Below, piece after piece: positions 20,723-42,117 of a stretch of 44,456 nt of DNA. Source of the stretch: a virus. Every line of letters begins with the position of its first letter. The first letter of the stretch is position 1. Position numbers and translations under genes: made by a program. The notes beneath the pieces are model-generated. The model was not told where the DNA came from, did not search any database, and saw nothing but the letters and a program-made list of their open reading frames with translations. Where the stretch lies: positions 1 through 44,456 of the IMG/VR virus record IMGVR_UViG_3300045912_000212. The stretch is one strand, 5' to 3'.

Positions 20723-21316
20723 TCAGGCTGGCGAGCGGCGGGGAGGGATGACGACGGCTAGAACCAGAACGGCGGTCCCCGCTGTCAACGCGAGAGTCTG
20801 TTGGGGGGTGAGACTGGTCCCGAGAGCCGAGTTCAGAGTTTGCGCGAGTTCATTGGTCCATGTTCCGCTCCACGCCATATAAACTGGCTGCGTCTGGCTA
20901 GGAGAACTGGAGGGGGACGGGGAGGGCGCGGGAACTGATCCTCCTGGGGCGATGGCTGAGGCTAGGGTGGCTTTGGGGTCGATCCCGGTCCACGCCGAGA
21001 CGTTCCTGAGGTAGACATCGCTCCGGTTCTCGGATGAAGGAGCGTACTTGTAGATGAACTGCTCAAGGGTCAGTCCCCGTGACGCATCCAACCGGATCTG
21101 CGCCAGCAGGCCCTCGTAGCTCGCCTCTCTCGTAGGCCATCCGGCCCAGTTGCGGCCAGCCAGGTAGACTGGTACAGCATTCCGCTGGCCAGCCCACACT
21201 AGATGACCTACATTCCACCGTCCGAACTGCCTCACCATCCGCTGGTTGACGCTATTAGGATCGTCCGACCCTTCCATCCTGATAATGGCGTTAGCCAGAG
21301 TGTGAATATCAGCCAT
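20723..21316 (-). CDS. Lysozyme-like transglycosylase with C-terminal membrane anchor, 197 aa
   Basis: The N-terminal domain (about 1-110) resembles phage peptidoglycan transglycosylases: ALANAIIRMEGSDDPNSVNQ-like opening with E15 as the likely catalytic acid, GRWNVGHLVWAGQ, and a helix GLTLEQFIYKYAPSSEN. A Ser/Pro linker (about 125-145) leads to a C-terminal hydrophobic segment (TLALTAGTAVLVLAVVIP). Expected role: cutting the wall at infection or lysis, tethered to a membrane. Last gene of the late operon, grouped with two small membrane proteins that may be holin or spanin equivalents. Confidence 0.75.
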   Translation of the reverse strand: MADIHTLANAIIRMEGSDDPNSVNQRMVRQFGRWNVGHLVWAGQRNAVPVYLAGRNWAGWPTREASYEGLLAQIRLDASRGLTLEQFIYKYAPSSENRSDVYLRNVSAWTGIDPKATLASAIAPGGSVPAPSPSPSSSPSQTQPVYMAWSGTWTNELAQTLNSALGTSLTPQQTLALTAGTAVLVLAVVIPPRRSPA

Positions 21317-21920
21317 GCTCTAACCTCCTCAGCCGGGATTCCGCCGCCTCCGCTTCCCGCGTCCACTCTGAAGCCGGGCGGCGGTAGTCGGCGGCATACC
21401 GCCGAACCCACATGGCGCCCTCAGGGTCACTGTCCTGCAAACGGGCCGCCCTCTGTTCGCTTTCGGCGGCGCAGACGGCCATTGTCTCCGCGCGGCCTCG
21501 GGCTTCTTTCGCCGTGAACCGTAGGTGCTCCATCACTTTAGCGCGGACCTGCTCATCGTGCAGGACCGGCCACTGGCCGCCGTAGAGCTCGGTTAGGTAA
21601 CGCTTCGCACCGGCCAGCGTGCCCTCGCCTGGAGCCACGCTGTAGTCAGCCGTGGCGTGCTCACCGGGCCCGTATTCGGTCCAGTAGCGTCCGCCTCGAA
21701 CCTGACCCATTTCGTCCCGCTTCTGTGGATGGCCGGAAAGGCGAATGGTTACCACGTCACCGTCGGGGACGTCCACATACAGATAGTAACTGTGATCGCC
21801 ACTCCCGCCATCTTGGAACGGGACGCCCCGCTCCCGGAGCCACTTAGATAAGCTCCGCCAGTTTGTGAAGTGGCGGGATGATGGATTGGCTCTCCGGAAT
21901 CTGATCGTGACGAGACTCAT
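21309..21920 (-). CDS. Hypothetical protein, 203 aa
   Basis: The N-terminus has a short RRANPSS motif, then a beta-rich part (HSYYLYVDVPDGDVVTIRLS) and a C-terminal helical Arg/Glu/Ala-rich half. The N-terminal portion looks like a small DNA-substrate or inhibitor-type fold, but no family is recognised. It overlaps the lysozyme-like gene by 8 nt, so it is co-translated. Confidence 0.72.
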   Translation of the reverse strand: MSLVTIRFRRANPSSRHFTNWRSLSKWLRERGVPFQDGGSGDHSYYLYVDVPDGDVVTIRLSGHPQKRDEMGQVRGGRYWTEYGPGEHATADYSVAPGEGTLAGAKRYLTELYGGQWPVLHDEQVRAKVMEHLRFTAKEARGRAETMAVCAAESEQRAARLQDSDPEGAMWVRRYAADYRRPASEWTREAEAAESRLRRLEHG

Positions 21921-21929
21921 AACCGGCCT

Positions 21930-22226
21930 CTACCGCGCAGCGGTATCCTCGTGCCCCTCTCCTCCAGATCTCACCTTCCGCGCCTGGTAGACCAGATACC
22001 GGCCAGCCAGAGCGGTAGCCGCCCCTTTGCCCGCCGCCGCCGCCAGTCCGTCCAGTGTGAACACTTGGCCCTGGGATACTCCATGCGCCACTCCCGCCGC
22101 CGCTCCCGCCACCGCTACCGGCACGGCCTCGACCACGACATCCACCAGGATGCCTCCCACGGCTCCCCCCAGAGCCCATGCCGGACTAAAGGTCTTGGCG
22201 ATTCCCCGGCTTAACTGTTTCCACAT
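21930..22226 (-). CDS. Small membrane protein, 98 aa
   Basis: Gly/Ala/Val-rich hydrophobic stretch (AWALGGAVGGILVDVVVEAV then VAVAGAAAGVAHG) giving one or two membrane segments, and a charged C-terminal tail (QARKVRSGGEGHEDTAAR). Small size, hydrophobicity and position in the lysis cluster make a holin-like or virion-membrane role possible. Confidence 0.7.
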   Translation of the reverse strand: MWKQLSRGIAKTFSPAWALGGAVGGILVDVVVEAVPVAVAGAAAGVAHGVSQGQVFTLDGLAAAAGKGAATALAGRYLVYQARKVRSGGEGHEDTAAR

Positions 22227-22228
22227 AA

Positions 22229-22567
22229 CTACCTCCCATTCTTAGTTCCGTTTTCTTTTTCACGTTGATAGCGAAGCTCATCCTTCATGTACTCTAGGGT
22301 GGTTTCGATTCGCGCCATCTTGTCCAGCAGTACCTGATGCAGTGACGTGCTCCTGTCCGCCGTGACCTTGAGAGCGTCTACGTCGGCCTTCATGATTGAG
22401 ACTGCAACGGCAAACCCGATGAGAACCACTGCTAGATTGATGATGACGGTCAATCCCACCCTGAAGTTAATCACAGGACCGTGGTCTCCATTTACTTTAA
22501 CCTCCACATCGCCGTCCTTCCTTCCTCCGTGTGGGGCGGAACGCCCAAACCTGAGACTACCTTCCAT
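22229..22567 (-). CDS. Small membrane coiled-coil protein, holin/spanin candidate, 112 aa
   Basis: Starts at the ATG at 22567, with AGGAGG upstream. The extra residues to 22585 lie before that site. An N-terminal soluble part is followed by one transmembrane segment (VGLTVIINLAVVLIGFAVAV) and a coiled coil (DALKVTADRSTSLHQVLLDK onwards) ending in charged residues. This topology is seen in phage holins and spanin-like proteins. Its start lies within the upstream gene's last codons, so expression is coupled. Confidence 0.72.
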   Translation of the reverse strand: MEGSLRFGRSAPHGGRKDGDVEVKVNGDHGPVINFRVGLTVIINLAVVLIGFAVAVSIMKADVDALKVTADRSTSLHQVLLDKMARIETTLEYMKDELRYQREKENGTKNGR

Positions 22568-23741
22568 TATCGGCCTCCTCCTCAACTCTTCTGGTTACCG
22601 GGAACAGCCATCCTTGAACGCCGCACAGAATACGGCTCGTCCCTACCTGAATCGTGCCGCTGAGATTAGGGACGCTGACCTGGAAGATGATTCTCTGGTT
22701 CGCCTTGGCTGCTACATAGTCCTGCACCGGGAACGGGCTGGCCAGAGATCCTACCGAGTACAGCAGGCCTCCCATGTTCCGGACCCAGTTCAGTCCGGCC
22801 CGGAGGCCCCACACGATGTCTCCGGAGCCCTGCACGAAACCCGTGCCTGTATAGATGCAGTAGTAGGCGTAGATTCTCGCTTCGTATCCGGTTGGTACGG
22901 TCCAATCCACGACAGCCACATCCACGCCCGGGCCTGGAGTGATTACCGAGCCCCGCTCGAAAAACTCACGTTCCAGGCCACGGGAACCGCGCCGGTAGGT
23001 ATCCATGCTCCGGATCTGATTCCATCCGGCCTGAGACGCTACGCCCAGGCCGCCGAGGCCGCTGAGGCCACGGCTGAGCCCGAGCGTTGAGCGGCCAGCC
23101 CCGTTAAGGTAAGAGAGCCAGCGCTTCCCGTCCTCATCGAGCGCGGCGTCGTACTGATTAGCCGGTCTGCCCGGAGGCATGGGGACGCGGTTGTACTCTG
23201 GAGGCAGGGCGGAGCGCGGGACGATCTGGTAGGGAGGCGCGGGCGGAGACTCTGACGGCGGGTTTGGCACGAACGAGGAATCCACTGGCATGAGAGCCAC
23301 GGGCGTTTCCGCCGGGCTTGTGATCTGTCCGGTTCCTGTTCCGATTCCCGAGCCCACGCCGATGCCTGACCCTCCGATGCCCTCTCCTCCGCCCGGACCG
23401 GACACCGCTGGCGGCGAAGAAGGCGAGGAGACGGGAGGCGCGGCGGATGGAGGGCTGTTTTTGTCCTTCTGCTTGCCCTTCTGCTTATCCCTCTGCTTGT
23501 CCTTGCCGGGCTCGGAAATCACCGGCCCTCCTCCGCTGGCGGGAGGGGGCGGCGGCGGAATCACTGACACAGTAGGCTGATAGACGTTCTGGGAGGACCA
23601 CACGCCGTCACAGTAGATGCTTAGAACACCGGGCGTGTGGAGCGCCACAATGGAACGCTCGGACTGTGTGATCCTCGCAGCCGTCAATCCTGACGGCCCC
23701 GTTGCCGCTCCCAGCTCGGACTGTGTGATCCGGGAAGGCAT
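22557..23741 (-). CDS. Spike-like protein with shared C-terminal domain, 394 aa
   Basis: The N-terminus has two RITQSE repeats in a beta-rich region. Then come a Pro-rich stretch, a Lys/Gln/Asp-rich segment (GKDKQRDKQKGKQKDK), a long Pro/Ser/Gly linker and, from about residue 268 to the end, a beta-rich domain (VPTGYEARIYAYYCIYTGTG, FVQGSGDIVWGL, NWVRNMGGLLYS, QGWLFPV). The same C-terminal domain occurs in the proteins at 25206-26960 and 26976-27584. The linker suggests an exposed fibre tethering a head domain. First of the spike set to the left. Confidence 0.78.
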   Translation of the reverse strand: MPSRITQSELGAATGPSGLTAARITQSERSIVALHTPGVLSIYCDGVWSSQNVYQPTVSVIPPPPPPASGGGPVISEPGKDKQRDKQKGKQKDKNSPPSAAPPVSSPSSPPAVSGPGGGEGIGGSGIGVGSGIGTGTGQITSPAETPVALMPVDSSFVPNPPSESPPAPPYQIVPRSALPPEYNRVPMPPGRPANQYDAALDEDGKRWLSYLNGAGRSTLGLSRGLSGLGGLGVASQAGWNQIRSMDTYRRGSRGLEREFFERGSVITPGPGVDVAVVDWTVPTGYEARIYAYYCIYTGTGFVQGSGDIVWGLRAGLNWVRNMGGLLYSVGSLASPFPVQDYVAAKANQRIIFQVSVPNLSGTIQVGTSRILCGVQGWLFPVTRRVEEEADNGR

Positions 23742-24763
23742 CAGGCGCTCCTGGTCACCCCGCTCTGAAGGCTGTTAGCCTCGCTGACCGTCCACTGGCT
23801 GCCCGACGCCGGGCTCACTGGCATGGACCGCCGGTAGGTTAGGTAACTGCTGGTGAGAGAGAAGGTAGACGTTCCGGGGTAGTCATTGCCTGCAACTCTC
23901 ACAGGCAGGCTGATATCGTTTACTCCAGCATCGTCCTTCCTGGCGATGACCCGGTGCTCTACAGCGTAGATAGTTCCTCCAGAAGGGACCACTGGCAGAG
24001 GATAGGCATAGAGGTCTGTGAGGGGAGACGAGGCGGCGGAGTTATAGTCCGTGTCTAGCGTGCTAGGGTTCTCGTCTACGTTCTGCCAGTTGGATCCGGC
24101 GGAGGGAGTCCATTCCGTCAGGTTCCCGTCGGCGTTTGGCAGGCTGAAGTAGACTCTGGTCTCGCCTGTCCGGCTGTTCATGAAAGATCCCTGATCATCG
24201 TAGATCACCAGATTGTCGATCTGCCCGTTCACGCCTGTACCGGCGGGACACAGCCAGCGGTTAGCGTAAGCGTTGGCTGTGGCCTGAGTGTTGACCCCGG
24301 TAAGGTTGATCTCGGGCGTGAGGCTGTTGTTCAGCCAGACCTGTACCTCGCCCAGGCTGGAGTGGATCAGCACACGCATCTGAACGTAGTACCACACACC
24401 CGCCAGAAGTAGGGTAGGCCCGGTAGCCAGCAGAGTAGTCCCCGCTCCGCGATGAATCTGGATGTTGTAACTGCCGATGATTCCGAACTGGACCTGTGTA
24501 CTGGAACCGTCCTGGAACGAAAGCCATCCCTTCAAGCCCGTGCCCGTTCCGATGTTGATGTGAAAGTTGGCGAATAGTACTTGGCGGTTAACTCCCAGGT
24601 TCCTGCCGTAACTGAGATTGCCTTGATTGGCTGACCTGCCGTAGCCGAACACTCCAGCTCCCAGTGAAGAGTTGGCCATCGTCCCGCTTGTCACATCGAA
24701 CCTGCCTGGGCAGTTGGTGAAACCGGTGTAGGTGTCAAACCCGTCCGAATCGAGATAAGCCAT
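23741..24763 (-). CDS. Lectin-like (concanavalin/LamG-fold) virion protein, 340 aa
   Basis: The N-terminal 200 residues follow a jelly-roll lectin pattern (SDGFDTYTGFTNCPGRFDVT, FANFHINIGTGTGLKGWLSF, GVWYYVQMRVLIHSSLGEVQ, NGQIDNLVIYDDQ), typical of phage LamG-like adhesins. A second beta domain closes the protein. Its start and the stop of the next gene are 4 nt apart. Probable receptor or glycan binding. It sits between two spike-like genes, which supports a host-attachment role. Confidence 0.75.
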   Translation of the reverse strand: MAYLDSDGFDTYTGFTNCPGRFDVTSGTMANSSLGAGVFGYGRSANQGNLSYGRNLGVNRQVLFANFHINIGTGTGLKGWLSFQDGSSTQVQFGIIGSYNIQIHRGAGTTLLATGPTLLLAGVWYYVQMRVLIHSSLGEVQVWLNNSLTPEINLTGVNTQATANAYANRWLCPAGTGVNGQIDNLVIYDDQGSFMNSRTGETRVYFSLPNADGNLTEWTPSAGSNWQNVDENPSTLDTDYNSAASSPLTDLYAYPLPVVPSGGTIYAVEHRVIARKDDAGVNDISLPVRVAGNDYPGTSTFSLTSSYLTYRRSMPVSPASGSQWTVSEANSLQSGVTRSA

Positions 24764-24767: not shown

Positions 24768-25196
24768 TTACACTCCGATGGAAAAAAGTCCTGCTACATT
24801 CTGGGTTACGTTGATTGAACTGGAGCCGTCTGGCGTGACAGGCAGTCCGATACCAGCCGAGATGAAAGCTAACAGATTCGACGTGGCCGGAGTCCCTGTG
24901 TCCCGGAAAATGACGATGGCCTGGCAAGGCGCTCCAGCCGCAACCACGCCGAAACTGAAATCAGAGCATCCGAGTGTGCCGAGGGACCATGATTTGCCGG
25001 CCAGGAGTCCGGAGAATGCTACTTGGGCCGCTACCGGAATATCTGAGAGAAACTGATCCGTGTTCTGCTGCGCGTCGTAGAGCCCAGGCCCCACGCCAGT
25101 CCGCACAAGTACAGCTCTCAGATTGTCTGTGAGTACGTCCGGAAACGGGTAGTTCTGGAGGGCCAATCCGTAGAGTGCATTGCCAATAATCGCCAT
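24768..25196 (-). CDS. Conserved virion/attachment protein, 142 aa
   Basis: It resembles a family I know from phage structural clusters: a short helical start (YPFPDVLTDNLRAVLV), FLSDIPVAAQVAFSGLLAGK, then CQAIVIFRDTGTPATSNLLA and GIGLPVTPDGSSSINVTQN. Such proteins usually lie beside fibre genes and probably form small trimer-like knobs. No enzymatic motif. It has intact ends and sits 9 nt from the 25206-26960 gene. Confidence 0.75.
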   Translation of the reverse strand: MAIIGNALYGLALQNYPFPDVLTDNLRAVLVRTGVGPGLYDAQQNTDQFLSDIPVAAQVAFSGLLAGKSWSLGTLGCSDFSFGVVAAGAPCQAIVIFRDTGTPATSNLLAFISAGIGLPVTPDGSSSINVTQNVAGLFSIGV

Positions 25197-25205: not shown

Positions 25206-26960
25206 CTAGACAGGGAACCACCACCCCTGAAGCTCCATCACCATCCGGGCCACGCCTACTTGAATCATTCCTGAGGCGTTGACCGTCTGCACGAACATTC
25301 TGATCCTCTGTCCGCTGGTGATCCATTCCTGATCGGCCAGCGGGAAAGGCTGGCCTACCCCGCCCAGCATGTATAGCATTTCCCCCATGTCTCTTACCCA
25401 AGCGTTGCCGATCTGAACCCGCCAGATGAGATCGCCGGACCCCTGTACGAATCCGGTTCCCAGGTATTGATTAGTGACCCCGTAAAGGATGCCGTTGTAG
25501 CCTACAGGACATTCAAAGTCGAGAACCAGTTGGCCGGGCGGAGGGTTGATGGCAGGGGTGATGATCGAGACCCTTTCATACCATTCCCGCCCCTCAACCG
25601 GCATCATGTAGCCGCCGGGCATCTCCACCAGTTTGCATCTAACGTCCGGGCGCGACACGAGACTGTCCAGGCGGGCCTCTACATGACGGCGGAACGTGTC
25701 TAGACAGCAGTCGTAGTAGTTAGGAGGCTTCAGCAGAGGAGGCTTACGGCCTGTGTCGAGTGGAGCGTCAACTGTGGAAGAAGGAGAGGAAAATGTAATG
25801 CTGGAAACGATGGTCCCGGCTCCGCCGGACGAGACTGCCAAGGCGTAACTGCCTACCTTCAGACCGCTGGCAACTACATAGACGTTGGCGGTCAGCAGAT
25901 CAGGCGTGGAGTATGACAGCAGGTCATAGTAGCCCACATACAGACCGGCGAGGGACGGGGCGGCTATTCTGGCTACATCAGTACTGCCTTCGGTGTCCGG
26001 GAACAGGGCGACTGTGAGAGGGGATCCATAGACAGCGGGCAAAGGAGCTGTTGACCACACCGGCGAGTTGGCCGAGACTGCGGTGATAAGAACTGAACCA
26101 AACCCGTCACTGCCGTATAGAACTACGTTGCCGGACACCAGACAATTACTGACAAAATCCTGAATCTGGAGTCCGGTCATGGCCTCCACCGCCACACCAG
26201 AGCCGCCTGAACCGTCCTCCATCAGGTAGTGGTAGGCGTTATAGTTACCGTCGAAAAATTGCATGAAGCCGTGGACCCTGCCGCTGCTTCCTTGGCAGAT
26301 GGAGGAGCAATACCACTTGTCCGCCCAGTTCACTAGAGAGGGCATTCCTGGCCAGAGCTGCGGTACCGTCCAGGCGCCGGAGATGCCGCCCTGGAGCTTG
26401 ACCGTGTGGGGCCGGGCGGTTAGTCCTGCGGGGGCTGGAGCGTAGTCCCACATCAACACCACCAGATCGCCGGTAGTGAGGCTGAAGGCCGCCTGAGGTC
26501 CATTAGCAGAGGACTGGTAGGCGCTCTCGTTGGCGGGGTAGGGAACCGCTGGCCCTACGGGAGATGTGGCGGACCATGAATTGGAGGCCAGATCGAAAGC
26601 GGATACCCTGAGATTCCCTGCGGTATCTACATAAACCAGCCACAGTTCCGGCAGGGTAGAATGACGGAGGCACCAGAACGTTCGTGCGTCCGGGTAAGAG
26701 ATGCTGCCGCCCACTGAATCAAGGCTGAGCAGTTGGGGAGATCCCGCTAAATCAACGATGGACCATGTATTTCCGTTGTCCGCCGACCGGAACATGGACA
26801 CCACGCTAGGCTGTCCATCCTGGTTGTTTCCAGCGTCTCCGTTCCACTGGCTGAAGCCTGGAACATAAAGCGCTCCTCCGTAAGCGAACGGGCCAAGCGT
26901 GGCTGTAGCCGTGGATGGGCTGAGGCATCCTGGAATCGGATTGATCAGCGGGGTGCTCAT
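25206..26960 (-). CDS. Spike protein with Asp-box beta-propeller and shared C-terminal domain, 584 aa
   Basis: Residues 1-400 are built of short repeats; SADNGNTW (59-66) is a clear Asp-box (SxDxGxTW) of sialidase/BNR propellers, and later blades are recognisable by W/F-rich strand ends. No sialidase arginine triad can be seen, so binding rather than cleavage is expected. Residues 465-584 form the same domain as in 22557-23741 and 26976-27584 (CPVGYNGILYGVTNQYLGTG, FVQGSGDLIWRV, VRDMGEMLYML, LQGWWFPV). I infer a receptor-binding spike docked through that domain. About 400 residues of head vary between the three proteins. Confidence 0.8.
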   Translation of the reverse strand: MSTPLINPIPGCLSPSTATATLGPFAYGGALYVPGFSQWNGDAGNNQDGQPSVVSMFRSADNGNTWSIVDLAGSPQLLSLDSVGGSISYPDARTFWCLRHSTLPELWLVYVDTAGNLRVSAFDLASNSWSATSPVGPAVPYPANESAYQSSANGPQAAFSLTTGDLVVLMWDYAPAPAGLTARPHTVKLQGGISGAWTVPQLWPGMPSLVNWADKWYCSSICQGSSGRVHGFMQFFDGNYNAYHYLMEDGSGGSGVAVEAMTGLQIQDFVSNCLVSGNVVLYGSDGFGSVLITAVSANSPVWSTAPLPAVYGSPLTVALFPDTEGSTDVARIAAPSLAGLYVGYYDLLSYSTPDLLTANVYVVASGLKVGSYALAVSSGGAGTIVSSITFSSPSSTVDAPLDTGRKPPLLKPPNYYDCCLDTFRRHVEARLDSLVSRPDVRCKLVEMPGGYMMPVEGREWYERVSIITPAINPPPGQLVLDFECPVGYNGILYGVTNQYLGTGFVQGSGDLIWRVQIGNAWVRDMGEMLYMLGGVGQPFPLADQEWITSGQRIRMFVQTVNASGMIQVGVARMVMELQGWWFPV

Positions 26961-26975: not shown

Positions 26976-27584
26976 TCAGACCGCTGGATAGAACCAGCCG
27001 AAGAAAGCACAAATGACCCGCCCTCCGGCCAGTCCGCTGCCTGCGGCATGGTTCACGAAATAGCGGACCCGTTGCTCAGCCGTCAGCCTCAGGCCGCCCC
27101 GGAACAGGGGGCAGGGCGAGGCTAGAGAGCCGAGAGTAGTTTCGATGTTGCCGAAGTTGCGGGCCCATCTGAGACCCACCTGGATCCTCCAGGTGAGATC
27201 GCCGCTGCCCTCTACGAATCCTGCGCCGGTGTAGAAGTTAGTGACTGAGGTAATCACCCCGTCGTAGCCAGTAGGGACGAAGAACTCGGTAACCAGGACA
27301 TCCAATCCGTTGTTGGGCGGCAAAGGGATCGAGTTGATCTCCTGGTACTGCCTGCCCTGGGGCGGCATGATGAGATAGGGCGGTTTATCGTACGAGGGGG
27401 TCTGCGGACAGCATATCTTCTGAAGGCCGCCCTGCGCCTGGATCATGCTCCACAGAGCGCCTTCTTTCCTTAGCAGCAGATCACACTCGTTCGGGGGCCG
27501 CATGACCGGTGCGAATGGGGTGGTTGCCGGGTATACCGCATCCGGGTTCAGGTTCACCCATGGACTGGTGTTCACAGTGTTCAT
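26976..27584 (-). CDS. Third spike-domain protein, 202 aa
   Basis: Starts at the ATG at 27584 (MNTVNTSPWVN), overlapping the upstream stop by 4 nt; the track frame reaching 27656 is rejected. A short N-terminal part (about 1-85, Pro-rich, MRPPNECDLLLRKEG) leads to the shared domain (FVPTGYDGVITSVTNFYTGA, FVEGSGDLTWRIQVG, ARNFGNIETTLGS, CAFFGWFYPAV). Being the shortest member, it may be the minimal form, e.g. a docking or base protein. Confidence 0.78.
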   Translation of the reverse strand: MNTVNTSPWVNLNPDAVYPATTPFAPVMRPPNECDLLLRKEGALWSMIQAQGGLQKICCPQTPSYDKPPYLIMPPQGRQYQEINSIPLPPNNGLDVLVTEFFVPTGYDGVITSVTNFYTGAGFVEGSGDLTWRIQVGLRWARNFGNIETTLGSLASPCPLFRGGLRLTAEQRVRYFVNHAAGSGLAGGRVICAFFGWFYPAV

Positions 27585-28135
27585 GCGCCCTCCCGTCCCA
27601 CATGGCCCACTTCCACCATCTCGCACGGCTCCGCGAAGTAGAGAGTTAGTTGGCAATACTGCGCCGACCCTGACAGATTTGACAGTTCCAGGTTAATGTC
27701 GCCGGGAGCCGTGAACAGCCTGGGCTGCGGCAGGACGAAAGGCATGGGGATGCCTCCCTCCAGACCAGCGGTAGAGTATTCACTAATTCCTCGTGGCCAG
27801 TAGAACTCCTGGCAGACGGGAATGCCGGTGCAGGCTTCAGTGACCTGAATCACGATGCTGGTGGGAGCCTGTTCGGCGTAAGCGGCGGAGTACTGGCGGA
27901 ACTGCATCCCCCACAGGTAGGATCCGCCCGCCACCTTGATCTGGTACTCCAGCGTGCCGTAAGCAGGCAGAGGCTGGTTGAAGTCGTCCGGTACGGCGTA
28001 GGCCCGAGGGCGGTAGGTATTGGCGCGGCGTAGCGTGTCCATCTGAGCCAGGGCCCCAGCCATGTACTGACCAGGCCAGTACCGGATGGAGGGGTTGTAG
28101 AGGAAGCCGTCCACGGGGTGATTCAGAGCGGCCAT
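27581..28135 (-). CDS. Beta-rich virion protein, 184 aa
   Basis: Starts at the ATG at 28135 after AGGAGG. It has an opening NPSIRYWPGQYMAGALAQMD, then strands (LEYQIKVAGGSYLWGMQFRQ, TSIVIQVTEACTGIPVCQEF) and a closing LFTAPGDINLELSNLSGSAQ-type run, a pattern like small jelly-roll proteins. It is similar in outline to the proteins at 28572-29429 and 29448-29876. Overlaps the spike gene by 4 nt. Possible minor capsid or spike-base protein. Confidence 0.72.
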   Translation of the reverse strand: MAALNHPVDGFLYNPSIRYWPGQYMAGALAQMDTLRRANTYRPRAYAVPDDFNQPLPAYGTLEYQIKVAGGSYLWGMQFRQYSAAYAEQAPTSIVIQVTEACTGIPVCQEFYWPRGISEYSTAGLEGGIPMPFVLPQPRLFTAPGDINLELSNLSGSAQYCQLTLYFAEPCEMVEVGHVGREGA

Positions 28136-28136
28136 G

Positions 28137-28481
28137 TCACTTTCCTCCCTTCGACTTCCACAACCAGTAGCCCATGCCGAGCCAGAAAGCGGCGCTGACA
28201 TAAATGACTATGTTGGACGCTTCCCATCCTGGATTCACGCCCATAAACTGAAGCCCGAGAGTGACAGTTCTGCCCGGCAGAGTCATGATCTTGAAGGCTG
28301 CCGTGGACGGACTGAACTCGCAAGCGCATGAGCCGTCTTGCTGCTTAACAGACTTCTGATGCCAACTGCATAACCGCCCGGAGGAGTCAGTAGACTGTCC
28401 GCACTCTTGCCCAGCCGCCGCTGTACTGGACTGGGACATTGGCATGATGCCAACAGGCTCTTCTCCAGAAAGTCCGATCAT
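28137..28481 (-). CDS. Small tail-anchored membrane protein, 114 aa
   Basis: Start at the ATG at 28481 (MIGLSGEEPVGIMPMSQSS), with AGGGGG upstream. It has four Cys in the middle (QECGQ, RLCSWH, SCACEF) and a C-terminal transmembrane segment (NIVIYVSAAFWLGMGYWLW) with a short Lys tail. Probably a virion membrane protein. The stop touches the next gene. Confidence 0.7.
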   Translation of the reverse strand: MIGLSGEEPVGIMPMSQSSTAAAGQECGQSTDSSGRLCSWHQKSVKQQDGSCACEFSPSTAAFKIMTLPGRTVTLGLQFMGVNPGWEASNIVIYVSAAFWLGMGYWLWKSKGGK

Positions 28482-28485: not shown

Positions 28486-28578
28486 TCACCCCCTCTTTCC
28501 CGTACAGCATCCGGCTTGGGCCGGAGCCAAGTACTCGCCTCCACCGCCGGCCCCGCTTAGACCACGGCCCATCAGCAT
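28486..28578 (-). CDS. Tiny ORF filling the gap, 30 aa
   Basis: The ATG at 28578 sits inside the last codons of the upstream gene, with a good AGAGGAG site, and the frame ends at 28486, just before the next gene's ribosome site. Gly-rich product (MLMGRGLSGAGGGGEYLAP). Packing and ribosome site favour translation; it could also serve only to couple the neighbours. Confidence 0.42.
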   Translation of the reverse strand: MLMGRGLSGAGGGGEYLAPAQAGCCTGKRG

Positions 28579-31547: not shown

Positions 31548-31569
31548 ATCAAAACCTCCTGATCCTTGG

Positions 31570-31882: not shown

Positions 31883-31927
31883 TCTCAGGCCCGTAGGGAG
31901 CCTGACATTCCACGCCCGGGCCTGAGA
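31883..31927. terminator. Hairpin between the large modular gene and the small beta protein
   Basis: TCTCAGGCCCG (31883-31893) and CGGGCCTGAGA (31917-31927) form a perfect 11-bp stem with a 23-nt loop and no T-tract. It may separate levels of the low-abundance modular proteins from the abundant virion proteins downstream. Confidence 0.58.
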
Positions 31928-31968
31928 GCCTGGCGGCGGGAAACTGGTTGAAGCAGGAGGGGGCCATA

Positions 31969-33771: not shown

Positions 33772-33776
33772 GATTA

Positions 33777-35738: not shown

Positions 35739-35748
35739 GACGCTCCCC

Positions 35749-36243
35749 TTAGTACGCTCCCCGCGCCGCCTGGTAGGCCCGCTTGATCCTGGCACCCACC
35801 CGGGGATATTTCCGTCTGGCGGCGGCGATGGCCTCCCGGTACTGCTCTTTGGCCCGCCGGACTGCGCTCTGATACTCACTCTTGCCTGGGCGGGCTAAGA
35901 GCATCAGAACCACCAGAACCCCGCCGCCAATCATGATCCACTGGGTAGTAGAGAGGCTCTTGAACGTGTCCCCAATATTGCCGGTGAAAGCGGAAAGGTT
36001 GAACTCGCCCAAGCCCATCAGGCCTACTTTGCCGCCGCCTTTGTCACCGGGCGCTCTTCCTACAGTCTGGAGAGCGTTCACCAGAGGGTTGTAGGGGGTC
36101 AGCAGTCTGGCGGGTAGGAACTCGCCCACGGACTGCACCCGTTTCATCTCGTGGGGCTGAGTGATCGGGTTCTGCGGCACCACAAACCAGCCGGGGAGCA
36201 GGTCTCCGAATCCGGGAGCGGGGTGGTGTGTAATCCATGCCAT
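35749..36243 (-). CDS. Membrane protein with FVVPQNP motif and basic tail, 164 aa
   Basis: N-terminal Pro-rich part with WFVVPQNPITQ (19-29) and a second LLTPYNPLVN, a glycine-rich MGLGEFNLS, one transmembrane segment at about 101-118 (QWIMIGGGVLVVLMLLA) and a basic coiled C-terminus (AVRRAKEQYREAIAAARRKY). It is related in motif to the 30735-31547 protein (GMGEFVPGGFVVPQNP), so both may bind the same partner. Likely virion membrane protein. Confidence 0.74.
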   Translation of the reverse strand: MAWITHHPAPGFGDLLPGWFVVPQNPITQPHEMKRVQSVGEFLPARLLTPYNPLVNALQTVGRAPGDKGGGKVGLMGLGEFNLSAFTGNIGDTFKSLSTTQWIMIGGGVLVVLMLLARPGKSEYQSAVRRAKEQYREAIAAARRKYPRVGARIKRAYQAARGAY

Positions 36244-36265
36244 AGTGTCGTCTCCTGTCTGACCG

Positions 36266-36697
36266 CTAAACTCGTTTCGCCATCACAATGATTCCAATCA
36301 CGACCGCCGCGCCCACAGCCAGCCACAACGCCGGCGTCTTTGTAAAGTCCAGTACGTTCTGCGCCGCCTGGTTAGCTGTAGTGGTAACCCACGCCTGACC
36401 CGGATTCGAGGCCATGTAGGCCCGGTAGTCTGCTTTCCATGACTCCAGATCAGGAGCTGACATCTCCGGAGTCCAGGCTCCAGGCACCGTCATCTGCTCC
36501 TGGGTTCTAGGGGCTTGCGGAACCGGCAGAGCCGGAGGGCCCTGACAGTTGAATCCGAACCAGGAGCACCAGATGTCCTCTTCATTCTTCGGAGCACACT
36601 GAACAGTAGCGCCTCCTGTCCCGGAAGTGTAGACCTTAGGGTAGTAGCCCGGAGGGCAGGTAGTCTGGGATTGAGACCCCAGGCCAGAGATGACCAT
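36266..36697 (-). CDS. Tail-anchored membrane protein, 143 aa
   Basis: The N-terminus is Cys-containing and Gly/Ser-rich (TCPPGYYPKVYTSGTGGATV) with a CSWFGFNCQG pair. The C-terminal transmembrane segment (ALWLAVGAAVVIGIIVMA) ends KRV. Stop and next start overlap (TAATG). One of the run of small membrane proteins that I read as components of an internal virion membrane. Confidence 0.72.
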   Translation of the reverse strand: MVISGLGSQSQTTCPPGYYPKVYTSGTGGATVQCAPKNEEDIWCSWFGFNCQGPPALPVPQAPRTQEQMTVPGAWTPEMSAPDLESWKADYRAYMASNPGQAWVTTTANQAAQNVLDFTKTPALWLAVGAAVVIGIIVMAKRV

Positions 36698-37017
36698 TAA
36701 AGGCCTCCTTTATACCGGCGTCCGGCCCTGGCGGTGCGGTAAGATGGCTTTCTCACTGGCAGCAGTCCAATCTGACGGAGGGTGTTCTGGATCTTCCGAG
36801 TGTGCAGCATCTCGTGAATACCCTGGTCGATGACCGGCTGAAACTGCCGGTACATGAGTTTGAGAACCGGGTCCGGATTGCGTTCAACAATCAGTTTAAG
36901 GCTGCGGGCTACCAACACATCCACTCGGCCTTGGGGATTAAGGGCTGGGTCGTGGAGATCCACCAGAGGCCGTGACTTCGGCCATCGAGGAGGACGGATG
37001 TGAGGCTGGTCTTTCAT
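36697..37017 (-). CDS. Basic hypothetical protein, 106 aa
   Basis: Starts by ATGA overlap with the upstream gene. Pro/Arg/His-rich N-terminus (IRPPRWPKSRPLVDLHD), NPQGRVDVLV and a helix RSLKLIVERNPDPVLKLMYR, basic tail (RTARAGRRYKGGL). It lacks a membrane segment, unlike its neighbours. Possibly a DNA-associated or scaffolding protein. Confidence 0.7.
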   Translation of the reverse strand: MKDQPHIRPPRWPKSRPLVDLHDPALNPQGRVDVLVARSLKLIVERNPDPVLKLMYRQFQPVIDQGIHEMLHTRKIQNTLRQIGLLPVRKPSYRTARAGRRYKGGL

Positions 37018-37328
37018 CTGGTCATCACCGCAAACAGCAGCACCGCGCCCAAGGCGAACACCAGGATCTGCGTCTGAGTCAGATTGCCGGGATACCCAGT
37101 CTCCATAGACCCGGTGATCTGCTCACAGTACTGCGGCTCAATCTCGAACATCATCTGTCCGGCTTCGCACACGTTGTAGCACTTGCCGTCCCGGCCTTTC
37201 TGGACCGTCCAATAAGCTGGCAGGTTGCAGACGTCGATTTTGCTGTAGTCGATCTGGCTGGCGTTGCCCAAGGCAGTCCAAGATCCCAGGCTGAGTTCCG
37301 GAGGCAGACTATTGCAACCACAGGCCAT
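37014..37328 (-). CDS. Tail-anchored Cys-rich membrane protein, 104 aa
   Basis: Cys at ACGCN, DVCNLPA, KCYNVCEAG and YCEQ are spaced as in disulfide-stabilised exterior domains, and a C-terminal membrane segment (TQILVFALGAVLLFAVMTR) anchors it. It ends exactly at the membrane with no long tail. Likely virion or envelope protein. Confidence 0.72.
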   Translation of the reverse strand: MACGCNSLPPELSLGSWTALGNASQIDYSKIDVCNLPAYWTVQKGRDGKCYNVCEAGQMMFEIEPQYCEQITGSMETGYPGNLTQTQILVFALGAVLLFAVMTR

Positions 37329-37337
37329 AAGATTCCC

Positions 37338-37496
37338 CTACCCTTTCTTCTCCCGGCGGCCTACGATGTAAGCCACGACCAGAGCAGCGATAAACAGCCA
37401 GGACCGTCCACAGACGCCGCTTAAAGCGGAGCCGCCAAGAGACGGATCACAGACGATCTGCTCCCTCCAGGCCAGATCAGACAGGCACATTCTCAT
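37338..37496 (-). CDS. Small tail-anchored membrane protein, 52 aa
   Basis: Start at the ATG at 37496 (MRMCLSDLAWRE), overlapping the upstream TAA, with GGGGG upstream. Two Cys (IVCDPSLGG, SGVCGRS) precede the membrane segment SWLFIAALVVAYIVG and the basic tail RREKKG. Belongs to the same class as its neighbours. Confidence 0.65.
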   Translation of the reverse strand: MRMCLSDLAWREQIVCDPSLGGSALSGVCGRSWLFIAALVVAYIVGRREKKG

Positions 37497-38047
37497 TACT
37501 GAATCACCCCCTGACTGGACCACCCTCCCATCGAATAGCCCGAACTCCAACCGGACATCCCCGCCAATCCTCGCCTGGCCAGTTGAGCTTGGTACTCAGC
37601 CGCCGTGACCTGAGTCTCAGGGTCTACGATCCCGTCCCATGCTGGCTGGTGTTTCTCCGCTGAATAAGTCCCAGTGGCCGCAATGGCGGCCTGCATCCGA
37701 TACCAGTTCCACTGATGGAAGTTGAGCTTGTAAGCTCCAGTTTTCCCGGCCTGAGCCGGATCGTAGGCGGCGGCCATCAGATCAGAGTCGGAGGGCACGG
37801 CAGGAGCGCTCTGACCGCTGCTGGCCGTAGATGAGGATGGCTGCTGTCCCTGCTGTCCTGTCTGAGTCCCTGAGGCCTGAGAGCCGCTTTGCACAGTCTG
37901 GTCCGGCTGCGTGCCTGGAGGCAGAACCGGCTGGTTACTAAGGGAGCCGAACAGGCCAGCCAAACCTCCACGGCTCTCAAGGTAGCGCCAGACAATATAG
38001 GCTGCCAGGGCGATCAGAGCGTACCTTACGATCTTCTGCTTATCCAT
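37496..38047 (-). CDS. N-anchored membrane protein with Gln/Ser linker, 183 aa
   Basis: Start at the ATG at 38047 (MDKQKIVRYALIALAAYIVW). An N-terminal membrane segment is followed by a Gln/Ser/Thr-rich linker (GSQASGTQTGQQGQQPSSST) and a folded C-terminal part (YKLNFHQWNWYRMQAAIAAT, then WDGIVDPETQVTAAEYQAQL). The NFHQWNWYRM pattern is familiar from virion proteins of tailless phages, though I cannot name the family. Confidence 0.72.
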   Translation of the reverse strand: MDKQKIVRYALIALAAYIVWRYLESRGGLAGLFGSLSNQPVLPPGTQPDQTVQSGSQASGTQTGQQGQQPSSSTASSGQSAPAVPSDSDLMAAAYDPAQAGKTGAYKLNFHQWNWYRMQAAIAATGTYSAEKHQPAWDGIVDPETQVTAAEYQAQLARRGLAGMSGWSSGYSMGGWSSQGVIQ

Positions 38048-38055
38048 GAGACCTC

Positions 38056-38499
38056 CTAACTCCTCCGGGAGAGCCAGTAGACTCCGAGGACCAGAGCTAC
38101 GGCCATGACACGGTTGTGATCCACCCACGCCCCCAAACGGCACAACGGATCAGTGTAGACATACTGAGCGCCTGTCGAGGGGCAGAGAGGCCCTGGTTCC
38201 GGACCGTCTGGGGGTGTGATGGAAGGCAAAACAGATTGGAGCGCGGACGGCGGGAGCGGAACGTCCTCGACAATCTGAGGCAGAGACGGCATCATCAGGC
38301 CGGTAGCCGGGTTCGGCTCAAGGAACATCTCGCTGCCACGGGAACACTGAGGGTAGGGCCTACACCGCTCATCATCACAGGTGAGCGGAGGCCAGAACCC
38401 ACGGCTCCGGCAATCCTCCATGTCCTGGACGGATACTTCTCCTGTGTAGCCGAAACACTGGATCTGGCGGCAGACATCATTGGTAAGATGGAGCGGCAT
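38056..38499 (-). CDS. Tail-anchored Cys-rich membrane protein, 147 aa
   Basis: Six or more Cys (VCRQIQCFG, DCRSRG, TCDDERCRPYPQCSRG) in the N-terminal half suggest a disulfide or metal-bound fold. A Pro-rich middle leads to a C-terminal membrane segment (VMAVALVLGVYWLSRRS). Reading 8 nt before the next gene. Likely virion-surface protein. Confidence 0.72.
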   Translation of the reverse strand: MPLHLTNDVCRQIQCFGYTGEVSVQDMEDCRSRGFWPPLTCDDERCRPYPQCSRGSEMFLEPNPATGLMMPSLPQIVEDVPLPPSALQSVLPSITPPDGPEPGPLCPSTGAQYVYTDPLCRLGAWVDHNRVMAVALVLGVYWLSRRS

Positions 38500-38501
38500 G
38501 G

Positions 38502-39281
38502 CTATTTCCCTCCTCCTCCTCTGGTGAGAACCAGGACTGCCAGACCAGCTACGGCCACAAGAGCCAGAACGCCAGGGTTCTGGAACATGGACGAGAAGGC
38601 GGCTTGTTCTTTCTGATCCTGGTCCTTCAGTCCGCCTCCGATGGAGTCGCCTACAGTCTGCTGTCTCGGAGTCTGAATCTCTCCGGGCTGCTGGAACGGC
38701 ACAGACTGGTTGGGCTTGTTCGTGACAGCCGAGGCAACCTCCTGGACTGTGTTGGGCATGCTGGAGGGGCTAAAGTTCCAATCCCCCGCTGGAGGAGCCG
38801 GAGCGGGAGGAGGAGCATAGGTGTAGACAGGAGCGGTATAGCCGGATGGAGTCTGATAGCCGGTTGAAGAGGCGAACTGGACAGGCGCCGTAACACCCGC
38901 CGCCTGGGCCGCAGCCACTTCCGCTCTTAGGATGTCCGTGTAACGGCCCGAAGCGATTAGATCAGCCGAGAAGTCATAGCCGGTGCCGGGGGCGGCGCAG
39001 ACCCTGTTATAGTAGCCGCCCGGTCCGTCAGGAAACCAGACAGCCTCCTCCCGGCAGGTCAGGCTGATTCCGGCGGCAGCCGCGACCGATTCAGCTTTAG
39101 CCAGGAGGTCCGGTCTCGACTCCTGGCTCGCGTAGATCTGTCCCAGAGAGGGAGGGCACAATCCCCGAAGAGAGGTAGAGCAGCGTGCATTCAGCCGGGG
39201 GATAAGTCCCAGAGCAGCCATGGACCCCGTGTCCAGTACCGCTCCAGCCTCGTGGAATGATGGCCTGACAGGCAATTTCAT
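38502..39281 (-). CDS. Tail-anchored virion protein, 259 aa
   Basis: Start at the ATG at 39281 (MKLPVRPSFHEAGAVL), since the frame to 39512 overlaps the next gene. It has an N-terminal folded domain with Cys (RLNARCSTSLRGLCPPS, LTCREEAVWF), a Gly/Pro/Tyr-rich linker, then AVTNKPNQSVPFQQPGEIQT and a C-terminal membrane segment (ALVAVAGLAVLVLTRGGGGK). Similar in architecture to the neighbouring proteins, but larger. Confidence 0.74.
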   Translation of the reverse strand: MKLPVRPSFHEAGAVLDTGSMAALGLIPRLNARCSTSLRGLCPPSLGQIYASQESRPDLLAKAESVAAAAGISLTCREEAVWFPDGPGGYYNRVCAAPGTGYDFSADLIASGRYTDILRAEVAAAQAAGVTAPVQFASSTGYQTPSGYTAPVYTYAPPPAPAPPAGDWNFSPSSMPNTVQEVASAVTNKPNQSVPFQQPGEIQTPRQQTVGDSIGGGLKDQDQKEQAAFSSMFQNPGVLALVAVAGLAVLVLTRGGGGK

Positions 39282-39490
39282 TTCGCCGCCTCCGGAAGGG
39301 TAGTTTGTGCTGCCGGGACAGTTCGAGGAGACGGACGCCCCCACCACCCCTTCTTCCACCCCCACCATGCTGCGGCGGCGATGATCAGGATAGACAGAGG
39401 GTCCAGTCCAAGCACAGACGGCTTGGCGGGCTCCGGAGGAGGAGGCTCCGTGAACCGGTAGTGTGAGCCGTAGTAGGGCACCTGAGGCAT
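39278..39490 (-). CDS. Small Trp-rich membrane protein, 70 aa
   Basis: Overlaps both neighbours (ATGA type). A Pro-rich N-terminus is followed by a membrane segment LSILIIAAAAWWGWKKGWWG and a polar C-terminus. The Trp-rich interface is typical of membrane-anchored virion proteins. Confidence 0.7.
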   Translation of the reverse strand: MPQVPYYGSHYRFTEPPPPEPAKPSVLGLDPLSILIIAAAAWWGWKKGWWGRPSPRTVPAAQTTLPEAAK

Positions 39491-40350
39491 CAGCGTCTCC
39501 CTCCACTCCCACCCATGAACAGAGCCGCTGCGGCCAGACCGGCGGCTAAGAGCAGCCCAGTGTTGCCCGTGAGCATGAGATCGAGGCTGGATGGCTGGAG
39601 AACTTCCCCGGTCTCAGGATCGACCCATGAGCCGGTGGCGGTCTGTACCGGATCGGCCTTCACATTGGGGTCATTAGCGATTGGGTCACGATAGCCTACA
39701 AACCAGTTCCAGCACTGTCCGTTCTCTTTCCAGACACAAGCGTTTCGGTCCCGGTCAGAGATGCACCGCTGGCCAGCGGATCCAAGGTCCGGATTCGAGC
39801 AGGCCTGAATGACGGCTTGCCATGCAGCGTCAAAATTGGCCAGAGCCTGAGCTTGGGAGGAACGGTAGCGGGAACCTGAGAGATAGCCATTCAGGTTTTC
39901 GGCCAGCTTCGGCTCGATCTCATTCACAATTGCCGTGGCCGCCTCTTTCTGTTTGCCTCTCCTGAACATGTTGGCGAGAAACAAGGTGACGCCTACTACC
40001 GCCGCTCCAATAACCGGCACAGCGATGGCGGCCCATGATGAAGCTGCGGCGGTTCCAGCCGCTCCTCCAGCGGTAGAAGCCGCCGAGGCTCCGGCGGACG
40101 CCTGAATGGCAGTGATAGCCGTGCCGCCGATAATGGACGGGGCGGACATCACAAGCTGCTCAGTCCCGCCAGTAGCGGCGGCCTGTCCGGCCTGAGAGGC
40201 TCCCGACACGATAGCCTGACCGGTAGTCACCGTTCCCATGCCGTAGTGGCGAATGCGGGTTGGGTGAGGCTGGACCGCCACCATCCTGGAGCCCGCCGAG
40301 CGGACTGCTCCCCACGGGACGGCAGGCATAACTGGGGAGAGTACCGTCAT
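39490..40350 (-). CDS. Two-pass membrane virion protein, 286 aa
   Basis: The Ala/Gly/Thr-rich N-terminal half contains the membrane segment ASSWAAIAVPVIGAAVVGVT, a soluble middle has FDAAWQAVIQACSNPDLGSA, QRCISDRDRNACVW and WFVGYRDPIANDPNV, and the C-terminal segment GLLLAAGLAAAALFMGG ends with GRR. The middle domain resembles, from memory, proteins of environmental phages with Cys-linked folds. Its stop overlaps the upstream neighbour by one base. Candidate minor capsid-membrane linker. Confidence 0.74.
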   Translation of the reverse strand: MTVLSPVMPAVPWGAVRSAGSRMVAVQPHPTRIRHYGMGTVTTGQAIVSGASQAGQAAATGGTEQLVMSAPSIIGGTAITAIQASAGASAASTAGGAAGTAAASSWAAIAVPVIGAAVVGVTLFLANMFRRGKQKEAATAIVNEIEPKLAENLNGYLSGSRYRSSQAQALANFDAAWQAVIQACSNPDLGSAGQRCISDRDRNACVWKENGQCWNWFVGYRDPIANDPNVKADPVQTATGSWVDPETGEVLQPSSLDLMLTGNTGLLLAAGLAAAALFMGGSGGRR

Positions 40351-40357
40351 GACTGGG

Positions 40358-40978
40358 TTAACGCCTGTGGCCCGTCAGCATCACCTTGATGTCCCCGCTC
40401 CTGGTCCGCATCACTTTAGCGGTGGTCCACTTGGCGGGAATAGGATTCCGGCGGCGGCGAGGGTTTTCCTCGCTCAGAGATCCATAATGCTCCCGGATGA
40501 TGCTGCTATAGTCCTTCCATAGACTCACATCCTCCCCGGCGGCGCGGCCAATACCCTGCTTGCTTTTAAGGACGTATTCCGCATAGACCCGGCCAGCATC
40601 AATCAGATTAGTCCCCTCCCACACTCTACCGATGTTGCCTACGATAACCTCGTAGGTGTGCTTGGGTTTGTTCTTGGGGTTCCGGCTGAAAGCCACTCCA
40701 CGCCGTCCTCCGCGCGTCTTAGATGCGGCCAGAGCATAAGCCCGAAGCCCGGAAGCCGGACGGCTTTTCACGGACACCTTAGCGGTTTTCTTTACCGCCT
40801 TCCTGGCCGCCCTCTTACTGCCATGCTTCCGGGGCTTGTCCTCGTACTTCCACTTTGACGCCCACTTCTTCGGCTCACCGGCTCGTGCCGTATCGTAGTC
40901 TGAACTAGCCCGGAAAGGGATGAATTTCCCGTCCGGCGTCGTCATGCCATGTTCGACATTTTTCACAAGTAGAGGCAT
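40358..40978 (-). CDS. Basic protein with RNP motifs, 206 aa
   Basis: Lys/Arg-rich throughout (GSKRAARKAVKKTAKVSVKS), with SRNPKNKPKH and ENPRRRRNPIPAKW motifs. A compact alpha/beta part sits between them (YEVIVGNIGRVWEGTNLIDA, then REHYGSLSE). No membrane segment. Probably binds nucleic acid, e.g. a condensing protein inside the virion. The RNP motifs match those in the two large modular proteins. Confidence 0.74.
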   Translation of the reverse strand: MPLLVKNVEHGMTTPDGKFIPFRASSDYDTARAGEPKKWASKWKYEDKPRKHGSKRAARKAVKKTAKVSVKSRPASGLRAYALAASKTRGGRRGVAFSRNPKNKPKHTYEVIVGNIGRVWEGTNLIDAGRVYAEYVLKSKQGIGRAAGEDVSLWKDYSSIIREHYGSLSEENPRRRRNPIPAKWTTAKVMRTRSGDIKVMLTGHRR

Positions 40979-40987
40979 CTCAATCTC

Positions 40988-41413
40988 CTATCTCCTGCTC
41001 ATCAGTACAACCAACACCACCGCCCCGGCCACCAGCAGTAGAGTGTTAGCCACGTTCTCGCCAGCCCGGATGACCTGCTGCTGAGGGGTCTGCGGAGCTA
41101 CAGGAGCGCCGCCGGTAGGCTGGTAGACCGTGGTTCCGTAAGGGGTGGTCTGCATGATCTTGGCTTGATTCTGGTTCAGCAGGATCTGCTGGCCGGTGGC
41201 GCTCCATCCGCCAATGACGGACTGCCAGAGGTTCGACCAGCCGGTAGGCTCATTGCTCAGACCGAGGGAGGAGAGGGTGTTAATCCCCTCAAGGCCTAAC
41301 ACGACTGGATCTCCATCATTGCCCAGAATCAAACCTGCACGCTTCAAACGGTCCATGACTTCGGGAGAGGGAGGCCCTCCTCCGGTTACGCTTGGACGAG
41401 CCGCGACCTGCAT
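40988..41413 (-). CDS. Tail-anchored membrane protein, 141 aa
   Basis: Start at the ATG at 41413 (MQVAARPSVTGGGPP), with AGGAG upstream, inside the end of the transglutaminase-like gene (28-bp overlap). A beta-rich body (LILGNDGDPVVLGLEGINTL) and Gln/Thr-rich region lead to a C-terminal membrane segment (TLLLVAGAVVLVVLMSRR). Again the small-exterior-plus-anchor design. Confidence 0.73.
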   Translation of the reverse strand: MQVAARPSVTGGGPPSPEVMDRLKRAGLILGNDGDPVVLGLEGINTLSSLGLSNEPTGWSNLWQSVIGGWSATGQQILLNQNQAKIMQTTPYGTTVYQPTGGAPVAPQTPQQQVIRAGENVANTLLLVAGAVVLVVLMSRR

Positions 41414-42117
41414 AGCCACCACGCTCCTAACAGTAGAATCAGTACGCCCCACGCGGACACACCACCGTCCAAAGGCCACTCATGGTATCTCATGCCACGA
41501 CCCGCCTCCGGAGCCTCCCATCCAGGCCACCCGCCGTGACTAGCGTCCAGTGGAATGCGGGTTCCGTCCGCCTCGCGGATGACCACATAAACATGGCTGT
41601 AGTCCCGACTAGAAGGGTCCGCCGCCAAAGTAGCGAACCAGACCCGGTAGCCCAGAGCGGCCAGCAGGGAGGCGAGGTACATGGAGTAATCGTCACAGTC
41701 TCCAGCCTTTGACCCTTCCGGCAAGGCCGCCATGTCCTGAGGACGGATGAGGGTCTCAACTACGACGTCCTGCTCTCCGAGCCCCTCAACCCCCGCCACA
41801 GGGCGGGCGGTCTGCTCATCCCGGACGAACCGGAGCTGCTTCTTAACCCACCAGTAGGCCGCCTCGTAAGGTGGGACGCCACCGGCGGCGGCCTGGGCTC
41901 TGATAGCAGCAGCCTGTGACTGGATGATGGGGGATTGAGCATCCTCGGCGGCATAACGCCGCATGAGAGAGATAACGTCTGCTGTCTGCCCGTCCCCTCC
42001 CGCTTGGACAGGGGTCAGTTCATACCTCAGGCCAGGGCCAAGCAGGGGATGGTCGATCCTTCCGGTTCCCGGGCGGCGGTATCCAAGTTCTGAGTGTGGG
42101 CGGGAGACTCCCGTCAT
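41386..42117 (-). CDS. Transglutaminase-like protein with C-terminal membrane anchor, 243 aa
   Basis: First gene of the late operon. The transglutaminase/Cys-protease triad is visible: C141 (AGDCDDYSMYLASLL), H175 (DYSHVYVVI) and D191 (IPLDASHG). The N-terminal part is helical (ADVISLMRRYAAEDAQS) and a membrane segment closes the protein (AWGVLILLLGAWWLC). It could process or cross-link virion proteins, or act on host peptidoglycan or proteins at entry. The start codon at 42117 has no clear ribosome site, so the true start may lie somewhat downstream. Confidence 0.83.
   Translation of the reverse strand: MTGVSRPHSELGYRRPGTGRIDHPLLGPGLRYELTPVQAGGDGQTADVISLMRRYAAEDAQSPIIQSQAAAIRAQAAAGGVPPYEAAYWWVKKQLRFVRDEQTARPVAGVEGLGEQDVVVETLIRPQDMAALPEGSKAGDCDDYSMYLASLLAALGYRVWFATLAADPSSRDYSHVYVVIREADGTRIPLDASHGGWPGWEAPEAGRGMRYHEWPLDGGVSAWGVLILLLGAWWLCRSRLVQA

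Follow-up and report, generated by a model that had tools for sequence, protein, structure and literature searches.

The window, that is, the 44,456-nucleotide virus record IMGVR_UViG_3300045912_000212 analysed at its full length, probably represents a lineage of temperate, tailless bacterial viruses with a single jelly-roll capsid protein, which resembles the portoglobovirus SPV1 in design and encapsidates a large genome independently of a packaging motor. As read from the sequences, this interpretation is carried by the circularity of the genomes, a conserved virion operon, the absence of motor and tail genes and an enrichment in membrane proteins; a predicted capsid fold points the same way. 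The initial annotation had proposed a tailless, membrane-containing lineage with an unusually large circle outside the described families, and our analysis supports this, the membrane and the taillessness being deduced from gene content.

Genome organization and the conserved virion operon

The two ends of the record repeat each other over 253 bp with one mismatch (1–253 and 44204–44456), and therefore the record is circular, with a true length of about 44,203 bp; by this sequence evidence the genome is complete. The minus strand carries nearly all of the genes, and the virion candidates fill the stretch from 42117 to 20723 (Table 1).

Relatives were found via the 200-residue protein encoded at 30039–30641, among both viral contigs and contigs of bacterial metagenome-assembled genomes (MAGs), and the window is one of about 30 such genomes or loci; a single-sequence search seeded with the 285-residue protein (28572–29429) gave no relatives. 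We analysed 22 viral records with full sequences, plus partial loci, and the family counts given below are over 29 sequences. Twelve of the 22 relatives are circular, at 41–62 kb, 11 of them closing through an exact terminal overlap of 97–127 bp and the remaining one through 52 bp with one mismatch. Throughout the 22 independent viral records the order of the virion operon is identical: a 698-residue protein on the opposite strand, the transglutaminase and the 286-residue, 215-residue, 164-residue-family and 606-residue proteins are followed by the 270-residue basic protein, the capsid candidate, the 142- and 285-residue jelly-roll proteins, a 206-residue protein and the spikes. Such recurrence in independent records is more than would be expected by chance. 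The polymerase–helicase–Sak4 module is found in only about half of the relatives, and it is therefore the virion module, rather than the replication module, that defines the group. No description of the group was found in open-access papers (subscription journals and most preprints lay outside the search), and its virion proteins are absent from PHROGs v4 and INPHARED.

Jelly-roll capsid candidates

The family of the 200-residue protein is present in all 29 sequences compared, and this is the most conserved protein of the group. Its AlphaFold model, built from a 27-sequence alignment, has a mean predicted local distance difference test (pLDDT) score of 83.4 and shows eight strands arranged as a single jelly roll. 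A Foldseek search of the PDB with this model ranked the SPV1 major capsid protein first (E 2.6e-3, TM-score about 0.5), followed by SH1, and VIA-align superposed it on SPV1 (6oj0_A) with Z 9.4 and a root mean square deviation of 3.9 over 148 aligned residues. The small capsid proteins of SH1, HHIV-2 and HCIV-1 came next (Z 7.5–7.8), with VP17 of P23-77 at 6.8, whereas unrelated jelly rolls reached Z values of up to 6.9; in the model, the SPV1 match thus stands moderately clear of these. Additionally, a BFVD search placed SPV1 VP4 at rank 3. Sequence searches of the PDB with the 200- and 285-residue proteins gave nothing useful, and tblastn of the former against phage records, a collection unchecked for SPV1, returned one weak fecal contig only. 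The 200-residue protein would be the main shell protein.

Two further jelly-roll genes adjoin it. The 285-residue protein is modelled as two tandem jelly rolls (pLDDT 88.4), and its structural matches are to generic viral and cellular jelly rolls, with Z below 8 and one domain aligned at a time. The 142-residue protein (29448–29876) belongs to the same sequence family and has a conserved position; the jelly-roll folds that had been suggested for these three genes are thus predicted by models for two of them, single in one case and tandem in the other, and by family membership for the third. In some relatives, a divergent second copy of the capsid family lies outside the operon place (L070:17933-18814, L047:3623-4387, L062:2637-2903 and L093:19206-19535).

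Membrane and DNA-associated proteins

A simple hydropathy rule assigns a transmembrane (TM) segment to the products of 108 of 293 open reading frames in the virion operons and of 98 of 699 outside them (odds ratio 3.6, p 6e-15; both sets include some spurious frames). The family of the 270-residue protein, encoded immediately upstream of the capsid gene, occurs in 29 of 29 sequences and also in the 12.5-kb relative described below. Its members are basic in nearly all genomes scored, and the operon encodes further basic proteins. The C-terminus of this protein has in common with the 164-residue TM protein, across genomes, a motif of the type [FL]xPG..VPQNP (GEFVPG-VPQNP), which can be recognized even at the DNA level, as a repeat (30820–30879 and 36167–36226). 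A peptide common to two membrane-associated proteins suggests that they may share a partner, which might be the inner face of the shell. Moreover, NP dipeptides are about 3.5 times as frequent as expected in the proteins of 30735–42117 (28 observed, 8 expected).

A small circular relative, a provirus and the carriers

A contig from a Pseudomonadota MAG (L112, 1–18527) appears to contain about one and a half copies of a 12,532-bp circle: at an offset of 12,532 bp, two of 5,871 bases are mismatched, and beyond these the end of the contig diverges. It keeps the transglutaminase, the conserved domain of the 606-residue protein (as an 84-residue version), the basic protein, the capsid candidate, a one-domain jelly-roll protein, the lysozyme and a weak match to the 698-residue protein, and additionally encodes an inovirus-type Rep and an integrase; it is a minimal and distant member of the group. 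It encodes neither HerA nor a credible Walker-A protein, the single pattern match falling in the lysozyme. The morphogenesis module without an ATPase consequently spans genomes from 12.5 to 62 kb.

The carriers of the relatives are bacterial, namely Acidobacteria and Pseudomonadota MAGs, and one of the elements is integrated. Locus L011 lies within a 336-kb Acidobacteria MAG contig with cellular genes on both flanks, which we take from their sequences to be truB and, at the opposite end, folE, and is therefore an integrated provirus. The Acidobacteria provirus spans ~30 kb (L095–L100; G025:C77, about 124.9–156 kb) and encodes ParB and a HerA-like ATPase. The other bacterial carriers are short contigs, for which misbinning is possible. 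Such elements are rare in assembled genomes: the provirus search found carriers in one of 396 Acidobacteriota and two of 398 Pseudomonadota genomes, the seeds being counted. A temperate virus is the best explanation for the window.

The genes for ParB and integrase, the many membrane proteins and the lack of a motor would also suit a satellite or virus-like plasmid with no shell of its own, for which a helper virus or membrane vesicles would provide the packaging. This is very unlikely, as the 20-kb operon is complete, includes spikes and a lysozyme as well as three jelly-roll proteins and is strictly conserved over genomes of 12.5–62 kb, and sizes of 41–62 kb are large for a satellite.

Absence of tail, portal and terminase genes

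In Pfam and PHROGs scans of proteins across the window, no terminase, portal, HK97 capsid, tail tube or packaging ATPase was detected. Targeted profile searches, run on the window together with 25 related records and with the positive controls detected, likewise gave no match to Terminase_6N, Phage_portal or HK97 Phage_capsid (0 of 26 records in each case). The proteins of the virion stretch gave no useful Pfam match in the window, and their two strong PHROGs matches are both to families of unknown function. Among 146 members of the core families, Pfam detected Transglut_core in six, which alone is informative, plus two incidental matches, and PHROGs gave three weak matches, none meaningful, of which two were to tape-measure families. 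Individual matches with suggestive names were rejected. In the window, those labelled 'tape measure' reflect the lysozyme-like domain in 20723–21316 and a hydrophobic stretch in 39490–40350; in the relatives, the 'tape measure' and 'minor head protein' matches are to an M23 peptidase domain, and one of two 'terminase small subunit' matches is an HNH protein. A Pfam match to DUF5899, 'minor capsid protein P2', is weak (E 0.12) and was taken as noise. The earlier statement that terminase, portal, tail tube, tape measure and HerA/FtsK are missing from the window is thus borne out, and neither a divergent terminase or HK97 protein, nor a set of homologues lying entirely in tailed phages, was found when looked for.

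These results bear on the proposal that the window is a tailed phage with unrecognizably divergent capsid, portal and terminase, whose jelly-roll proteins are head decorations or fibres. Many tail fibres and decorations are indeed jelly rolls, and phrog_2448, phrog_644 and a HerA homologue occur among phage proteins too. Nevertheless, with the three marker profiles at zero in all records, and the core proteins devoid of head or tail matches apart from the two weak tape-measure ones, this proposal is already largely refuted; furthermore, the core is retained in the 12.5-kb relative, whose size leaves no room for an added tail module. We regard a tailed phage as the least probable of the explanations considered.

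Packaging ATPases

The only P-loop proteins of the window are the Sak4-like protein (14244–15053, from a Walker-A search) and the helicase (16335–17960, from Pfam), both in the early operon, as the initial annotation had stated; HerA/DUF87 was not found in the window. Its further statement, that a packaging ATPase is lacking, holds for the window and for most relatives and fails for the group as a whole. A search for FtsK/SpoIIIE found nothing over the cut-off in 22 related viral records, and two sub-threshold matches proved to be HerA-like. HerA/DUF87 is present in six of 26 records (G004, G006, G019, G021, G820 and G821).

The main rival explanation is accordingly a tailless virus with ATPase-powered packaging, by HerA in some members and, in others, by host FtsK or HerA, the Sak4-like protein or the helicase. 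It would fit with those six records and the related provirus protein, with the FtsK-HerA ATPases used by helvetiaviruses, and with phrog_2666, annotated as 'terminase large subunit', which matches those of the HerA proteins that were scanned. However, to explain the presence of HerA on the capsid tree takes at least 3–4 gains or losses, the HerA-like proteins of the group differ in type, and a homologue of the same family occurs in the phage record MW202482, which has its own terminase and portal, so that HerA in the group need not be a packaging enzyme. Moreover, G012 and G014, which are complete circles of 41 and 52 kb, respectively, encode neither HerA nor any convincing P-loop or Walker-A protein, and nor does the 12.5-kb circle. 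On account of this patchy distribution, the differing types and the occurrence in a terminase-bearing phage record, we rejected HerA as a group-wide packaging ATPase, and consider ATPase-powered packaging unlikely, though clearly less so than a satellite or a tailed phage.

Several observations weigh against motor-independent, SPV1-like encapsidation. The model behind the SPV1 match was built from 27 aligned sequences, and the match itself is moderate; the six records have their HerA, and the Acidobacteria provirus has a HerA-related ATPase, recognized by a PHROGs match; a non-Walker or host-supplied motor is conceivable; and the virion is known here through its genes.

Proposed encapsidation and its significance

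The gene content nonetheless points to a shell enclosing an internal membrane, without a tail, and to an assembly order in which no virus-encoded motor would pump the DNA in. The single-TM proteins and the Arg-rich 270-residue membrane protein would link capsid, membrane and DNA; most likely, the DNA would be condensed by basic virion proteins on the capsid-bound membrane, and the shell would assemble around the condensed DNA, in a manner comparable with SPV1 and FLiP. In SPV1, the circular DNA forms a nucleoprotein core inside the membrane (PMC8459092), and by analogy the simplest reading is that the virus of the window does the same with a genome two to three times as large.

Apart from this group, the combination of a tailless, membrane-lined shell built from single jelly rolls with the lack of a motor has been described only for one small virus, which infects hot-spring archaea. 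The absence of a packaging ATPase from SPV1 has been read as a relic from before ATPase acquisition (PMC8812541); if our interpretation is true, a diverse bacterial lineage shows this stage to be widespread and offers many genomes in which to test the proposed order of events. It would also challenge the assumption that DNA genomes of such size need a virus-encoded motor, as they exceed those reported for tailless prokaryotic groups (under 20 kb for double jelly-roll viruses, most of which have a packaging ATPase, and about 30 kb for Sphaerolipoviridae). The chances appear evenly balanced that the group is a new bacterial taxon of high rank (order or class), which shares with the portogloboviruses a basal position in the single jelly-roll realm and is motor-free up to about 62 kb through assembly driven by membrane and nucleoprotein.

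Other features of the window

The remaining members of the operon are listed in Table 1. The transglutaminase family occurs in 22 sequences, with Transglut_core detected in relatives, and the 698-residue family, also in 22, always adjoins its gene on the opposite strand. The 606-residue family is present in 26 of 29 sequences, and the C-terminal domain repeated in the three spike-type proteins belongs to a family found in 24.

Table 1. Positions of the features discussed in the text
Position	Strand	Feature	Remarks
5947..18775	-	Early operon	Family A DNA polymerase, UDG-exonuclease, ERCC4 nuclease, Sak4-like ATPase, helicase
19292..19984	-	Tyrosine integrase	
20723..21316	-	Lysozyme-like peptidoglycan hydrolase, C-terminal TM	Putative role in lysis or entry
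22557..23741	-	394-residue spike-type protein	Shared C-terminal domain
23741..24763	-	Accessory spike or receptor-binding candidate	phrog_2448 (unknown function)
24768..25196	-	Accessory spike candidate	phrog_644 (unknown function)
25206..26960	-	584-residue spike-type protein	Shared C-terminal domain
26976..27656	-	Spike-type protein	Shared C-terminal domain
27581..28201	-	206-residue core virion-operon protein	21 sequences, conserved place
28572..29429	-	285-residue protein, two tandem jelly rolls	Putative vertex, turret or minor capsid protein
29448..29876	-	142-residue one-domain jelly-roll protein	Putative penton or second shell protein; adjoins capsid gene
30039..30641	-	200-residue candidate major capsid protein, single jelly roll	AlphaFold model and PDB match
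30735..31547	-	270-residue protein, Arg-rich N-terminus (net +47), then hydrophobic segments	Candidate DNA-to-membrane linker
31969..33789	-	606-residue protein	Conserved core domain is the C-terminal ~150 residues
33777..35879	-	700-residue virion-operon protein, rich in NP motif	8 sequences including the window
35749..36243	-	164-residue single-TM protein	Two copies of [FL]xPG..VPQNP-type motif
36266..41479	-	Series of small proteins	One C-terminal TM in several (36266, 37014, 37338, 38502, 39490, 40988)
40358..40978	-	Basic protein, net +29	
41386..42117	-	Transglutaminase-like/cysteine peptidase fold, C-terminal TM	First gene of virion operon
42277..44373	+	698-residue core protein, low-complexity N-terminus, no Walker A	Divergently transcribed

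Outside the early operon the window also encodes ParB and a reverse transcriptase. The latter (2820–4160) is confined to the window among the relatives compared, and no template repeat for a diversity-generating use of it was found; a search of Rfam gave no match. Also specific to the window are a paralogous pair of small membrane proteins (2373–2795 and 19948–20439), the C-terminal ends of which are VYYH and VYYQ, and the gene for an early protein, probably that at 8813–9280, which matches the Mom-like DNA modification family phrog_1384 (E 1e-32).

Comparison with known virus groups

The requirements for Caudoviricetes, namely terminase, portal and HK97-fold capsid, each find no counterpart in the 26 records. 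Corticoviridae, Tectiviridae and Autolykiviridae are likewise tailless, with an internal membrane and jelly rolls, whereas their main capsid protein is a double jelly roll, their prokaryotic members are under 20 kb and most have a packaging ATPase. Finnlakeviridae (FLiP) are tailless bacterial membrane viruses with a circular genome, although this is single-stranded DNA of about 9 kb, in contrast to the 44.2 kb of the window. The initial annotation had drawn a parallel with FLiP, which stands insofar as a packaging ATPase is absent there too (PMC7654751); it does not extend to the capsid, as FLiP has a double jelly roll and the single jelly-roll candidate described here resembles portogloboviruses and helvetiaviruses instead.

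A separate realm has recently been established for the single jelly-roll viruses (PMC12714852). Helvetiavirae of the realm Singelaviria (Sphaerolipoviridae, Simuloviridae and Matsushitaviridae) are tailless, with single jelly-roll capsid proteins and a membrane, and the capsid proteins of SH1, HHIV-2, HCIV-1 and P23-77 are among the structural matches of the capsid candidate. However, they carry FtsK-HerA packaging ATPases, of which there is none in the window, and the genomes of Simuloviridae are 16–19 kb. Helvetiavirae have two single jelly-roll major capsid proteins; the window has three adjacent jelly-roll genes as candidates for such a role.

The closest likeness is to Portogloboviridae (SPV1): a single jelly-roll capsid protein (here in a model, and with a presumed major role), a circular genome, no packaging ATPase in the window (six of the 26 records of the group carry HerA), basic DNA-binding proteins and glycosyltransferase genes, the last in some relatives. 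The latter genes lie within the virion operon of G012 (L062:13714-15696), and similar sequences occur in G004, G014 and G022. SPV1, which is known only from hot-spring archaea, differs in having a circle of about 20 kb, compared with 44.2 kb for the window (12.5–62 kb for its relatives), and a Saccharolobus host, compared with the bacterial carriers of the relatives; the window, moreover, has its own DNA polymerase, integrase and lysozyme, and no sequence similarity to Portogloboviridae was detected in the searches described above. Overall, we assign the window and its relatives to a new lineage of tailless viruses with single jelly rolls, whose design is closest to that of Portogloboviridae and which we place outside that family.

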